Shown here piece after piece: positions 20,231-23,801 of a stretch of 47,120 nt of DNA; positions within the stretch are counted from its first letter, which is position 1, and each line of letters begins with the position of its first letter. A model generated the notes under the pieces. That model worked only from the letters and a program-made list of their open reading frames with translations, was not told where the DNA came from and did not search any database. Both the position numbers and the translations under genes were made by a program. This DNA is from Candidatus Poseidonia sp. (lineage in GTDB: Archaea; Thermoplasmatota; Poseidoniia; Poseidoniales; Poseidoniaceae), in the NCBI GenBank assembly GCA_022426155.1, contig JAKMEE010000030.1, positions 1 through 47,120 on the forward strand, given 5' to 3'.

Positions 20231-20248
20231 CCGCGCCATGTGGGTGAG

Positions 20249-21634
20249 ATGGGTGCTACCGTGGCGAAACCGAAAACTTCTGCAGAAATCGCACGTGATG
20301 AAGCCGAAAAGGCGCAGCTTGACAACATGCTTGGGGGGGCCTTCGGGGACATCGAAGGACTCGAACCCGCTCAAGAAAAACCACCTAGCGAAGTACCCGT
20401 AGGCGAAGAAGTAGAGTCCGTTGAACAACCCCCAAGTGAAACCCCACCTACCAATTCGCCGACAGGCCCACCCAGCGGACCGCCAAAGGGATCGCCAACG
20501 GGGCCGCCTAGTGGGCCGCCTAGTGGGCCGCCAAAGAAATCGCCAACAGGGCCGCCTAGTGGACCGCCAACGGGGCCGCCTAGTGGGCCGCCAAAGAAAT
20601 CGCCAACAGGGCCACCTAGTGGACCCCCTAGCGGACCGCCATCGAACGAGACTCCATCAGAGGCGCCAGCCTCTGAAGAAACTCCCATTGAAGAAACGGT
20701 AGTCGAAGAAGCACCTCCCGAGGAAACCGCTCCAGAAGAAACCCCCATTGAAGAAACGGTAGTCGAAGAAGCACCTCCCGAGGAACCCGTTCCAGAAGAA
20801 GCCCTCGTTGAAGAAACGGTAGTCGAAGAAGCACCTCCCGAGGAACCCGTTCCGGTCCAAAGTCCACCATCCGAACCATCTACTGAGGCTCTCGCCGCTC
20901 TGGCCGAAAAAGAAGCAGAATTGGAACGCCTTCACGCTGAGAACGCTCGTCTCCGTCAATCGGTGATTGGAGCAACTGAAGTCATTGAACAACTTGAGGA
21001 GCCCTCCATGCCACCCCTGGTGGAAAACAACATCGTTGTCGCCGCCCACGTCATCTCTGATTTCGTTCGCCTTGGTCGCCAACTCGACCGAGAGCATTTG
21101 GTTCGTTCAACCATGGGCAGTCTCGCCATGCTCCACCCCGATCAGCCTGGTTTGATGGTATCAACGCGCCACATGGCTCAGCTTCCAAGAATGAACGAGC
21201 GAAGTTTGTGCGCTGCACCATTGGGTAGTTCTGCACCAAGAGGCTCTCCTGCCGACTGGCGCGTCATGGAAATCATCCTCGCTTCTGTGAGTATGGTGAC
21301 GGGCGGCCCAGCTGCGGTCATTCACATGCATGGGCCCTATACGACAACTGCGAGTTGTGAAAAAGACCTGGTTCTATTGACTCCGAAGGACGAGATTGGG
21401 AAACAACACATTGGAAAAATTATCATCGTTGATGAAGATCTCGAGCAACCAGATGATTATCTTCGTCAAGTAGCGGAGGCGCTTAAGCAAGGGGGCATGC
21501 GATGCGTTGTTGTAAGAGGTAATGGAGCCTATGCAGTGGGTGCTGATTTCGACCAAGCATGGGCCAATGCTGCCATGCTTGAACACAGCATGCAAATCCA
21601 TTTACTCGCCCGCCAAGCCAACTTGAAAATTTGA
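20249..21634 (+). CDS. Pro-rich and acidic repeat protein with C-terminal aldolase-II/adducin-like domain
   Basis: The 461-residue protein has three parts. Residues about 71-131 are tandem GPPSGPP / KKSPTGPP units. Residues about 145-202 are a 20-residue acidic repeat built on EETVVEEAPPEE. After a short coiled coil (LAEKEAELERLHAENARL), residues about 250-455 resemble class II aldolase/adducin domains: AVIHMHGPYTTTAS carries the HxH metal pair (His359, His361), and VVVRGNGAYAVGADFDQA follows the usual RNHGvvvvG pattern. There the third metal His is Asn425, so metal binding and aldolase activity are doubtful. Adducin itself is a non-catalytic scaffold with this fold. The ATG at 20249 fits a leaderless start from the shared TATA box; a GTG at 20240 is in frame. 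Cytosolic; role unknown. Confidence 0.7.
   Translation: MGATVAKPKTSAEIARDEAEKAQLDNMLGGAFGDIEGLEPAQEKPPSEVPVGEEVESVEQPPSETPPTNSPTGPPSGPPKGSPTGPPSGPPSGPPKKSPTGPPSGPPTGPPSGPPKKSPTGPPSGPPSGPPSNETPSEAPASEETPIEETVVEEAPPEETAPEETPIEETVVEEAPPEEPVPEEALVEETVVEEAPPEEPVPVQSPPSEPSTEALAALAEKEAELERLHAENARLRQSVIGATEVIEQLEEPSMPPLVENNIVVAAHVISDFVRLGRQLDREHLVRSTMGSLAMLHPDQPGLMVSTRHMAQLPRMNERSLCAAPLGSSAPRGSPADWRVMEIILASVSMVTGGPAAVIHMHGPYTTTASCEKDLVLLTPKDEIGKQHIGKIIIVDEDLEQPDDYLRQVAEALKQGGMRCVVVRGNGAYAVGADFDQAWANAAMLEHSMQIHLLARQANLKI
20461..20643 (+). repeat. Proline-rich coding tandem repeat
   Basis: Irregular units encode GPPSGPP and KKSPTGPP, with blocks such as GGGCCGCCTAGTGGGCCGCC recurring several times. 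It codes for an extended, probably disordered linker in the 20249 protein. Copy number is likely to vary between strains because the units are nearly identical at the DNA level. Confidence 0.85.
20681..20855 (+). repeat. 60-bp acidic coding tandem repeat, about three copies
   Basis: AGTCGAAGAAGCACCTCCCG recurs at 20701, 20761 and 20821, exactly 60 bp apart, with only a few substitutions in the intervening bases. Each unit encodes a 20-residue Glu/Pro/Val block. Confidence 0.9.
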
Positions 21635-21758: not shown

Positions 21759-22190
21759 ATGGAACAGAAATTCATAGTTGAAATTGCAGACAAATCTGGC
21801 CACTCCGTGGTTGAGATGACCCAAGAACAAATCGTAGAGGAATCACAGCGTGCAGCAGGCACCTGGGTGTTCGTGAACGACCAACTCGTCAGCACAGCTG
21901 ACGTGGCCGACATGAACCTCGAAGCCGGTAGCCGAGTCCGCTTGATGCCAGGCCTTGTCGGTGGCAGCGAAACCCCAACCTTTACTGTTGAAATCGCAGA
22001 CAAGTCAGGCCACTCCACAGCCGTGATGACCCAAGCAGAAATTGCAACCCAAGCCAAGAAGGCAGCAGGTACCTGGGTGTTCGTGAACGACCAACTTGTC
22101 AGCACAGCTGACGTGGCCGACATGAACCTCGAAGCCGGTAGCCGAGTCCGCTTGATGCCAGGCCTTGTCGGTGGCGTAACTGCCTGCTGA
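21759..22190 (+). CDS. Tandem beta-grasp (MoaD/ThiS/SAMP-like) protein with two Gly-Gly ends
   Basis: The 143-residue protein is two copies of a 70-residue domain. Each runs: strand pair FIVEIADKSGHS / FTVEIADKSGHS, a helix, then TWVFVNDQLVSTADVADMN, LEAGSRVRLMP and GLVGG. The order of strands and the ending (hydrophobic-x-P-x-x-x-GG) match MoaD, ThiS and archaeal SAMP proteins, which have the ubiquitin fold and are activated at the C-terminal Gly-Gly for sulfur transfer or protein tagging. Gly-Gly falls at 68-69 and 138-139. A four-residue tail, VTAC, follows the second, so both sites would need proteolytic exposure. The fold is inferred by eye, not by profile search. The start at 21759 has AGGTGA upstream. 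The gene is followed after five bases by a SANT-like gene, then rpo12. Confidence 0.65.
   Translation: MEQKFIVEIADKSGHSVVEMTQEQIVEESQRAAGTWVFVNDQLVSTADVADMNLEAGSRVRLMPGLVGGSETPTFTVEIADKSGHSTAVMTQAEIATQAKKAAGTWVFVNDQLVSTADVADMNLEAGSRVRLMPGLVGGVTAC
21852..22175 (+). repeat. Direct repeat: two 114-bp copies 210 bp apart
   Basis: Bases 21852-21965 and 22062-22175 differ at only two positions (C/T at 21860/22070 and 21897/22107), both synonymous. The first third of each domain, just before these copies, is much more diverged. This points to recent gene conversion or strong constraint on the second part of each domain. Confidence 0.92.
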
Positions 22191-22195
22191 ACAGC

Positions 22196-22411
22196 ATGAC
22201 ATCGCTTTCCCAAGGGCCTTGGACAGCGGAAGATGAAGACTTGCTGGTCTCCAATTTGGAGATCGGACAACCGCTTGAAATTCTCGCGAATGTTCTGGGC
22301 CGGTCCGAATTTGCTTTGGCAATGAAAATGGTGCGAATGTACTGCAAAGGGCAACTCGTTGTCCTTCATCCAGACTCTTTGGACCATCTTCTCAAATCAA
22401 CGAAGGCATGA
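22196..22411 (+). CDS. Small SANT/Myb-like helical protein
   Basis: The 71-residue protein begins after SLSQG with PWTAEDEDLLVSNLEIGQP, then LEILANVLGRSEFALAMKM. The spacing Trp-x(4)-Glu-Asp-x-x-Leu, then iA..LgRs..A, follows Myb/SANT-type helix-turn-helix DNA-binding domains. A role in transcription is plausible but unproven. It starts five bases after the tandem ubiquitin-like gene and ends 47 bases before rpo12, so all are probably in one operon. It might equally be a small protein-interaction domain, as SANT domains often are. Confidence 0.55.
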   Translation: MTSLSQGPWTAEDEDLLVSNLEIGQPLEILANVLGRSEFALAMKMVRMYCKGQLVVLHPDSLDHLLKSTKA

Positions 22412-22458: not shown

Positions 22459-22608
22459 ATGGTTGAACTCGTTGACTACAAATGCGCTGATTGTGGAAGC
22501 CTTGAATCGTTTCATCGAGAGCGTAACGGAATTAGTTGCAAAGCATGCGGTTCCCGCATTTTCATGAAACTCCGCCGCCACGGCACCAAGCGTATTGACG
22601 CTGAGTGA
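22459..22608 (+). CDS. rpo12: DNA-directed RNA polymerase subunit P (Rpo12)
   Basis: The 49-residue protein has two zinc knuckles: Cys9/Cys12 in YKCADCGS and Cys27/Cys30 in ISCKACGS. RIFMKLRRHGTKRIDAE follows, matching the conserved C-terminal tail of archaeal subunit P and eukaryotic Rpb12 (RIL.K.R...v.A). It is a structural zinc-binding subunit that stabilises assembly of the Rpo3-Rpo11-Rpo10 platform. It is short but complete. The ATG at 22459 has GGAGAGAGA upstream. Its stop overlaps the GTG of the RFC-like gene. Confidence 0.85.
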   Translation: MVELVDYKCADCGSLESFHRERNGISCKACGSRIFMKLRRHGTKRIDAE

Positions 22609-23801
22609 ACAATACTTCTCAACTCGCAGAGTTGAAAGACCTTGGACATTGTCAACACACTATGACGATGTGGATGGATTCATTTGCACCACGTCTCTTT
22701 TCGGATTTGGTAGGCCCCCATTCACTGGTTGAGGCCTTAACAAACACATCCCTTCAATCCAATCCTCCCCACCTGTTGCTTTCAGGGCCTCCGGGGTGTG
22801 GAAAAACCGCCGCCTACCGATTGATTTGCCGACAAGTCCTCGGACCCGCTTGGGAAGCAACAACGCATGTGTTGCAGGCACGAGATCTTTCCAAGACATC
22901 CGGTGCGATGGCAAAATTCGAGACGTTTTTACGGCCATCGGGCGCAGGTTCTGAAGACACATTGGCAGGAAGAACAAGCCTGGATGCCTTCGACCAATCC
23001 CTTTCCGTTTCAACGAATGACAGCCCCTGGCCCGCAGGACAGCCACCCGAATTTACCGCCTCAAACGGAAGGGCTCCAGTTTCGAGAATCATCGTGATTG
23101 AAGACGCGGACTATCTCGGCCATGCACGCCAATCTTATTTACGACGAATGATGGAAGAAAGCAGCCGAAGTGCCCGTTTTATTTTCACGACCCACACTCC
23201 TTCTCGGATGATTGAAGCGATTCGGAGCCGAGTCCAACACATTCGCTTTCCATCTCTAACACGGGTCATGATCGAACAACGATTGAACGCCGTTTTAGGA
23301 GAAGAAGGGCACGACGCAACCCTCGGTCTTGTTGGGGATGTAGCCCATGTTGCGAATGGAAACCTTCGGAAAGGATTGTTCATGCTACAATTGTTGGCGG
23401 AGAGGGAACTATTACAGGACCGAAAGCATGTTCAAATGCTGATGGCCAACACCTCCTTACGCGAAGTTCAACTCATCATCGAAGAAGCCCTTCGCAATCG
23501 AGTCCACGAATGGCGTTGGGAAAAACACGGCGAGAAAAACAGTCGCGTCCTCAAGGGCGCAATGGGTGCCTTAGACCAATTGATGAACGCCCATGAAATG
23601 GACGCCATGGAAGTAGTCTCCCGTATTCACCAATTTCTAACGGCAGGGAGGTCACATTATCCCCCAGCTCTCTTGACGGAATTGCTCAACGCTCTTGCGG
23701 CATGCGATGCTTCTCTTCAACGATCGGCTCAAGGGCGCATCCAATTGGAAGTATTTCTGCACCGTGTGGCAGAAATTGGGGCCCAATACCCCGGGCTATG
23801 A
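22605..23801 (+). CDS. RFC clamp-loader-like AAA+ ATPase
   Basis: The 398-residue protein (379 if translation begins at the ATG at 22662) opens in RFC style with MWMDSFAPRLFSDLVG, like W.EKYRP..l.DivG. Walker A is LLSGPPGCGKTAA (61-68). Walker B reads IIVIEDADYL, with Glu and Asp exchanged relative to the usual DEAD. The sensor/arginine region is ARFIFTTHTPSRM then AIRSRVQHIRF, with SRV where RFC has SRC. An insert of about 60 Ser/Pro/Gly-rich residues lies between Walker A and B. The C-terminal helical collar is present. It probably belongs to the DNA sliding-clamp loader, as a large-subunit-like or accessory RFC. The GTG at 22605 overlaps the rpo12 stop; homology favours 22662. Confidence 0.75.
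   Translation: MNNTSQLAELKDLGHCQHTMTMWMDSFAPRLFSDLVGPHSLVEALTNTSLQSNPPHLLLSGPPGCGKTAAYRLICRQVLGPAWEATTHVLQARDLSKTSGAMAKFETFLRPSGAGSEDTLAGRTSLDAFDQSLSVSTNDSPWPAGQPPEFTASNGRAPVSRIIVIEDADYLGHARQSYLRRMMEESSRSARFIFTTHTPSRMIEAIRSRVQHIRFPSLTRVMIEQRLNAVLGEEGHDATLGLVGDVAHVANGNLRKGLFMLQLLAERELLQDRKHVQMLMANTSLREVQLIIEEALRNRVHEWRWEKHGEKNSRVLKGAMGALDQLMNAHEMDAMEVVSRIHQFLTAGRSHYPPALLTELLNALAACDASLQRSAQGRIQLEVFLHRVAEIGAQYPGL

Follow-up and report, generated by a model that had tools for sequence, protein, structure and literature searches.

The subject of this analysis is a short gene on contig JAKMEE010000030.1 of Candidatus Poseidonia sp. (GenBank assembly GCA_022426155.1), an archaeon of the family Poseidoniaceae, of which positions 1 to 47,120 of the forward strand were analysed as a single stretch of DNA (hereafter "the window"). 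The gene encodes a protein of two head-to-tail domains that resemble ubiquitin-like modifiers (Ubl domains), each ending in Gly-Gly, and we consider it here together with its relatives and with the genes for a small E1-like enzyme, a JAMM-type protease and a short protein, X, that occur in the same genomes. The features of the gene, all on the plus strand, are as follows.

21759..22190, plus strand: poly-Ubl (here di-Ubl) gene, 143 amino acids and a stop codon; an open frame whose homologues start at the matching position
21759..21965, plus strand: Ubl domain 1, residues 1-69, ending LMPGLVGG; weak profile likeness to ubiquitin and ThiS
21966..21980, plus strand: linker SETPT, joining the Gly-Gly of domain 1 to the domain 2 core
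21966..22175, plus strand: Ubl domain 2, residues 70-139, ending LMPGLVGG
22176..22187, plus strand: C-terminal tail VTAC past the last Gly-Gly, predicted to be removed; relatives also have residues after their last Gly-Gly
21777..21965, plus strand: DNA repeat copy 1, 189 nucleotides
21987..22175, plus strand: DNA repeat copy 2, at 87% identity with the first; the last 78 nucleotides of both copies are identical

The tandem gene and its repeats

The frame is open from the ATG at 21759 through the stop codon at 22190 and encodes 143 residues, which, as a preliminary description of this DNA had it, make up two domains of about 70 residues, both with the end LMPGLVGG, and a VTAC tail. At the DNA level the gene holds a direct repeat of 189 nucleotides at a spacing of 210 with 87% identity between the copies, and at the protein level 53 of 65 aligned residues are identical between the two domains. 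Aligned with itself, the gene gives its best score (114) at an offset of 210, and 200 codon shuffles reach at most 16; the tandem repeat is far beyond chance. The linker that joins the domains differs in sequence among relatives, which carry NAPT, QDAPT, KEDPT or SETPT at this place.

The evolution of the repeats was followed in 19 genes of the window's genus (the truncated gene L019 was left out), 13 of which hold exactly two copies. The C-terminal (3') halves of the repeats have a DNA identity of 0.929 within a gene, as against 0.804 between species at either position, and at third codon positions the corresponding values are 0.853 and 0.609. The N-terminal halves are position-specific, with identities of 0.690 for the same position and 0.624 for the other position. 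By these comparisons the 3' halves evolve in concert and are homogenised within genes, and it therefore appears that uniformity is kept in the stretch that an E1 and a JAMM common to all repeats would recognise, while the N-terminal halves drift apart. Between the window gene and 16 of the 18 other genes, nonsynonymous divergence (dN) is 0.11-0.27, and synonymous divergence (dS) is 0.65-1.5 in 15 of them and undefined in one. In L003 the third repeat is identical to the second in protein, which points to a recent gain.

The fold was assessed with a profile of 38 diverse Ubl domains, for which the E-values of polyubiquitin chains, which sum over the repeats of the database chain, were set aside in favor of single-domain values. 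Among the best 60 of the 101 matches of this profile in the PDB (E up to 10), 57 are ubiquitins, and the likeness to ubiquitin lies in the C-terminal half. Aligned by hhalign, ubiquitin scores 21.0 over 52 columns (300 shuffles that keep the Gly-Gly reach at most 12.4; the N-terminal part of the alignment is unconvincing) and E. coli ThiS scores 16.9 over 65 columns (300 shuffles reach at most 12.1). The whole window protein matches the Pfam ThiS model at E 1.3e-4 with 22.9 bits, for a cut-off of 22.5, and falls below the cut-offs of the NCBIfam ThiS, SAMP1 and MoaD models. These profile likenesses are weak, and for single domains the PDB E-values stand at chance level; a beta-grasp fold is taken as likely for the Ubl domains.

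Relatives and partner genes

Homologues were sought in a main sample of 59 genomes, the window's own included (35 of the window's family and 24 of the order's other family), and in a wider sample of 389 genomes of the phylum. A single-sequence search with the window Ubl finds matches in 36 of the 59. Frames of the window's genus contain two, three or four Ubl copies, and single-domain Ubls occur in the other family and in some genera of the window's family, including genomes that have the same E1-JAMM-X operon. Domain ends were counted over 56 distinct Ubl-bearing frames (frames, not genomes), 31 of which have at least two domains. In these 31 array frames, with two to four domains each, Gly-Gly stands at all 72 readable domain ends, the 73rd being cut by a contig end, and the internal Gly-Gly is conserved equally with the terminal one. 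Two of the arrays are truncated at the 3' end, two are fused to E1 and the other 27 are complete and unfused; all 27 have one to six residues past the last Gly-Gly, and 20 terminate in Cys. Two further frames are of unusual build: L109:4573-4881, a single Ubl with a 19-residue tail after the Gly-Gly, lies directly upstream of E1 and JAMM genes, and L027:1909-2556, which comes after a three-Ubl frame, consists of a fourth Ubl and then 143 residues of uncharacterised sequence.

The preliminary description proposed that E1-like and JAMM-type partners, along with further tandems, be sought in related genomes. Arrays are indeed present in relatives, and the partner operon is present in the window's genome itself, on a contig other than that of the di-Ubl gene, where the genes for a small E1 (G000:C26:6067-6717), a 181-residue JAMM (G000:C26:6714-7256) and a 78-residue X form one operon with a four-base overlap at each junction. 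The small E1 has 216 residues and a ThiF domain only (PF00899, 65.9 bits for a cut-off of 28.1), and it also matches eukaryotic E1s (yeast Uba1, E 1.5e-11). The glycines G19, G21, G22 and G24 of its ATP loop (GxGGxG) and the residue C161, which hhalign places opposite C184 of E. coli ThiF, are invariant in 13 of 13 sequences. A search of the 59 genomes with the ThiF model returns an E1-like protein of about 400 residues in 54 of them at E below 1e-60, and also the small E1 (about 216 residues, or fused), which tracks the Ubl: in the window's family 33 of 35 genomes have it, and in the other family it passes the cut-off in 4 of 24, with a weak fifth beside JAMM in G050. Paired and far longer ThiF-domain frames (504-942 residues) in G039:C36, G007:C53 and G026:C4 belong to a different E1-like class.

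All 12 members of the JAMM protein share E60, H98, H100, S108 and D111, and the resulting motif, EXnHTHX7SXXD, matches the JAMM/MPN+ motif, EXnHS/THX7SXXD (PMC300881). Twelve of the protein's 13 PDB matches, weak ones (E 0.08-0.42), are AMSH-type JAMM deubiquitinases; no relatives were confirmed in viral contigs and none matched in plasmids. Protein X, of about 80 residues, is encoded 3' of the JAMM gene in most operons read, and was not found by profile beside JAMM in L062 or L065. For X, Pfam yields nothing below E 0.05 in the scanned members, PADLOC has no match and the PDB none that convinces; in NCBIfam it meets only a chemotaxis model, far below that model's cut-off. Four weak matches to X outside the order (E 8e-5 to 9e-4) fall within frames of 450-505 residues and are taken as chance. 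A further protein, Z (231-254 residues), was considered as a substitute for an E2 enzyme and rejected, as it is matched in only 2 of the 59 genomes, both of which had supplied sequences for its alignment, and not in the window genome; it lies beside an E1 or Ubl gene at L062:1626-2321, L112:6822-7559 and L108:6327-7091, is fused to a Ubl at L067:4759-5841, and has one Cys that is invariant in 4 of 4.

Across the 389 genomes of the phylum, JAMM is found in 65, Ubl in 65 and X in 63; the JAMM and Ubl matches are confined to two families, which also account for 59 of the 63 with X. Ubl and JAMM occur together in 60 genomes, Ubl only in 5, JAMM only in 5 and neither in 319. For Ubl and X the counts are 53 with both, 12 with Ubl only and 10 with X only, and for JAMM and X they are 57, 8 with JAMM only and 6 with X only. 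In the window's genus 29 genomes out of 30 have JAMM, among them the window's own, and in genus g17 of the same family Ubl, JAMM and X are all absent from the 8 genomes listed. Presence in the other family is patchy, even inside two genera (g10 and g11): JAMM occurs in 5 of the 24 genomes, the same 5 have Ubl (G050 by profile search only), and the remaining 19 have neither, as judged for some of them by single-sequence search only. Gene fusions, both Ubl-Ubl-E1 (L026/L054 and L028/L055) and E1-JAMM (L065, L103, L104 and L105), tie the predicted Ubl, E1 and JAMM proteins together.

Of the 59 genomes, 56 contain a ThiS/MoaD-family match distinct from the poly-Ubl gene (G000:C40:60545-60754 is that of the window's genome); for G004 and G013 this match is only partial, inside a longer frame. 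A further JAB-like gene (frames of about 190-420 residues) lies outside the operon in 46 of the 59 at E 0.001, with 8 over the curated cut-off, and a few of the 46 matches are other JABs. The poly-Ubl system is probably additional to the ordinary ThiS/MoaD system; because a separate ThiS/MoaD-type Ubl is present, it would be a second Ubl system of these cells.

Downstream of the window gene and on the same strand lie a 71-residue open reading frame (22196-22411), an Rpo12-type zinc ribbon (22459-22608; Pfam RPAB4, E 1.4e-7) and an RFC-like AAA ATPase (22605-23801). The gene order had been given correctly in the preliminary description, and the label "SANT-like" for the 71-residue product was not borne out (Pfam Myb at E 0.16 at best, and no NCBIfam match). 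At 20240-21634 the window encodes a class II aldolase/adducin-domain protein (Pfam E 4.9e-14) with a long N-terminal run of PSGPP-type and acidic repeats, and the same gene precedes the array in a genome of a different genus (L056). In G073, a genome of another genus in one contig of 2.06 Mb, the di-Ubl gene has rpo12 and the RFC-like gene as neighbors, and 0.4 Mb separate it from the E1-JAMM-X operon; because this single contig shows both the tandem and its separation from the operon, neither is likely to be an artefact of assembly. The link to transcription or replication that had been read from the gene neighborhood is weak: rpo12 is a conserved neighbor, with its diagnostic peptide in 25 of 30 loci, but E1, JAMM and the single-copy Ubls of the other family are located elsewhere. 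TFIIB-like genes near the operons offer a separate lead, and no more than that, toward transcription. In the other family, TFIIB-type zinc ribbons over the Pfam cut-off immediately follow X in L103 and L106 and lie some 3 kb away from the Ubl in L062 and L112; among the seven loci tested, the candidates in L104, L105 and L065 were not confirmed. In L107 a TFIIB-like zinc-ribbon gene lies nearby, as judged by eye.

Likeness to known systems

Among bacterial operons, those of class 6e are described as carrying between one and three Ubl repeats, with JAB and E1 fused in most cases, an E2-like protein that is inactive and a metal-binding protein, and those of class 6d as having a Ubl, JAB, E1, E2 and an alpha-helical protein (PMC1779556). 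The tandem-Ubl operons of that 2006 account are bacterial and often mobile (PMC1779556), and polyUbl operons are restated for bacteria in PMC11354881. The system described here shares with class 6e its tandem Ubls of about 70-75 residues, E1-like enzyme and JAB peptidase (PMC1779556). Unlike class 6e as treated there, it has an archaeal host, up to four repeats, the extra protein X of about 80 residues, Ubl-Ubl-E1 fusions, a poly-Ubl gene that in the window's lineage lies apart from the E1-JAMM operon, and no E2/RWD-like match (PF00179 and PF14461, 0 of 59 genomes, where the controls are silent too).

Within what was searched, the small E1 is closest in sequence to the ThiF protein of PRTRC cassettes, which is its best NCBIfam match (E 7.2e-17, but 61.5 bits for a curated cut-off of 144.75) and its best plasmid match (31% identity, E 2e-10) and aligns with it in hhalign at E 2.9e-15; PRTRC protein A shares a block, HTH...FWSxxD, with JAMM (hhalign E 0.0019, 26 columns). 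The PRTRC locus compared differs in that its C protein ends GTKG and is not recognisably related to the Ubl and in that it has no tandem; for the B protein, no counterpart turned up. We infer that the PRTRC cassettes are the class 6d operons of PMC1779556. The present system appears to be an archaeal variant of bacterial polyUbl/PRTRC-type systems; a search confined to the open-licence literature found no archaeal poly-Ubl in print.

SAMPs are single-domain Ubls of the ThiS/MoaD type, and unlike the SAMP system of Haloferax the window genome carries its ThiS-family match separately. Eukaryotic polyubiquitin genes have an extra residue past the last Gly-Gly and evolve in concert; unlike theirs, the repeats of poly-Ubl are alike in their 3' halves only, the predicted protease is a JAMM, and the sequence likeness is weak. 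What the two have in common are head-to-tail repeats in varying number, which in the eukaryotic genes are cut at Gly-Gly (PMC11354881). SAMP1 and HvJAMM1 of Haloferax provide the case of an archaeal Ubl that is linked covalently to protein and released by a JAMM (PMC4443979). Caldiarchaeum ubiquitin, like poly-Ubl, has a tail past its Gly-Gly, removed there by the JAMM protein CsRpn11, and the CsUb/CsRpn11 pair coexists with CsSAMP/CsJAMM as poly-Ubl does with a ThiS-type Ubl (PMC6043591). Unlike poly-Ubl, the Caldiarchaeum precursor has 87 residues and one domain (PMC6043591) and its cascade includes an E2 and a small RING protein (PMC5654768). Because a Ubl fused to ThiF is known from Campylobacter (PMC1779556), fusions of Ubl and E1 domains are not new in themselves; what sets the present ones apart from earlier E1 fusions are the tandem Ubls on E1 and the E1-JAMM-X operon. 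For Marine Group II, one single-cell genome has been described with UCH and RING-type genes (PMC4327156).

Proposed processing and alternative readings

What the sequences show directly is the tandem with its Gly-Gly ends and its tails, the motifs of E1 and JAMM, their operon, and the co-occurrence and fusion of the parts; with the variation in copy number these features lead us to think it probable that poly-Ubl genes encode a processed precursor, similar to polyubiquitin, with an E1 and a JAMM of its own. A cleaved precursor with such partners was one of two possibilities raised in the preliminary description, and it is the one to which these features lend support. Cleavage, activation, conjugation to proteins, its reversal and any role of X we infer as follows. 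The dedicated JAMM metalloprotease would cut past each Gly-Gly and strip the short tail, so that all the resulting Ubl monomers would end alike; the small E1, whose gene immediately precedes that of JAMM, would then adenylate the C-terminal glycine and probably take the Ubl onto the conserved C161. The activated Ubl would most likely go on to target proteins, X perhaps assisting, and JAMM may also remove it from them. The likelihood that we attach to this reading and those attached below to its alternatives need not sum to one, in that a sulfur carrier could share the first steps.

A number of observations weigh against processing and conjugation of this kind. In the PDB profile search the best single-domain ubiquitin is at E 0.17, and an unrelated enzyme chain (3d6x) is at E 0.16; the hhalign probabilities are low (12.9 for ubiquitin and 4.3 for ThiS), and single domains mostly belong to no Pfam family, with 2 of 29 matching ThiS at E 0.1 (best 0.035). 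The small E1 has an invariant His (position 59, NLGHQ-type, 13 of 13) where the NLxRQ of ThiF has Arg, Pfam Prok-JAB picks up 7 of the 12 JAMM members at an E of up to 0.1, and even the best of them (7e-4) stays below the cut-off. The two E2 models named above match none of the 59 genomes, but the control genomes are equally silent, so that this counts neither way. Conservation of the Gly-Gly positions had been chosen beforehand as one of the points on which the precursor idea could fail, and departures are seen in three single-domain frames only (AG in L066 and L107, FG in L108); the tail-less single-domain frames are that of L108 (FG) and one of L112 (GG). Ubl occurs without JAMM in five genomes and JAMM without Ubl in another five, for which incomplete assemblies may be the cause. 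The Fisher p of 2.6e-58 for Ubl and JAMM ignores shared ancestry, as do the p values for the pairs with X, and the patchy co-occurrence within the other family is better controlled in this respect than the phylum-wide value.

The weak Pfam ThiS match of the window protein and the alignment to E. coli ThiS, which over its 65 columns outscores 300 of 300 shuffles, would suit a sulfur carrier, for which JAMM trims the tail, E1 adenylates the end and a thiocarboxylate donates sulfur (in the manner of ThiS, MoaD or the QbsE/PdtH siderophore type), and Ubl-JAB-E1 operons of siderophore pathways are described (PMC1779556). We nevertheless hold a sulfur carrier to be unlikely. The small E1 consists of a ThiF domain alone, within genomes of which 54 of 59 have the E1 of about 400 residues and 56 of 59 a distinct ThiS/MoaD match; no recognisable sulfur or cofactor gene is present in the E1-JAMM-X operons read, where neighbors were mostly judged by eye; and E1s linked to JAB are argued to act more like true E1s (PMC1779556). 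Protein modification is favored over sulfur chemistry because of the separate ThiS-family protein, the lack of recognised sulfur genes and this JAB linkage. The second possibility of the preliminary description, an intrinsically double carrier, would have the final tail trimmed and the tandem used whole, like ISG15-type double Ubls. The position-specific N-terminal halves of the repeats (0.690 versus 0.624) and the 13 of 19 genes with exactly two copies are consistent with such a unit, but it fits less well with copy numbers from one to four, with the single-copy Ubls that accompany the same E1-JAMM-X operon in some genomes, with the equal conservation of internal and terminal Gly-Gly and with linkers that vary, and we give it little credence. 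Least probable, and by our estimate very unlikely, is capture of a defence-type Ubl conjugation system (Bil or CBASS type II), to which weak matches of the small E1 to the PADLOC E1-E2 (E 4.8e-8) and BilD (E 9.8e-5) models and the patchy presence in the other family might point; the matches are of the E1 fold only, since PADLOC at E 0.1 returns nothing for Ubl, JAMM or X, and against capture stand the presence of JAMM in all but one of the 30 genomes of the window's genus and of the Ubl at a conserved chromosomal site.

The preferred reading, i.e., a precursor processed by its own E1 and JAMM, can be carried further, in a form that we offer tentatively and regard, taken as a whole, as less likely than not: a minimal E2-free cycle of small E1, JAMM and X would run apart from the ThiS/MoaD system, fed by a polyubiquitin gene kept uniform by gene conversion, with TFIIB-type proteins among its targets. 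The predicted proteins are short, and cleavage and activation are therefore directly testable in vitro. Eukaryotes are the best-known bearers of polyubiquitin genes; what we describe would be a chromosomal, archaeal version that is near-universal in the sampled genomes of one genus. With its few parts, the system lends itself to asking why tandem Ubl precursors exist and whether conjugation can run without an E2, and it bears on how parts related to plasmid PRTRC cassettes entered core cell biology.
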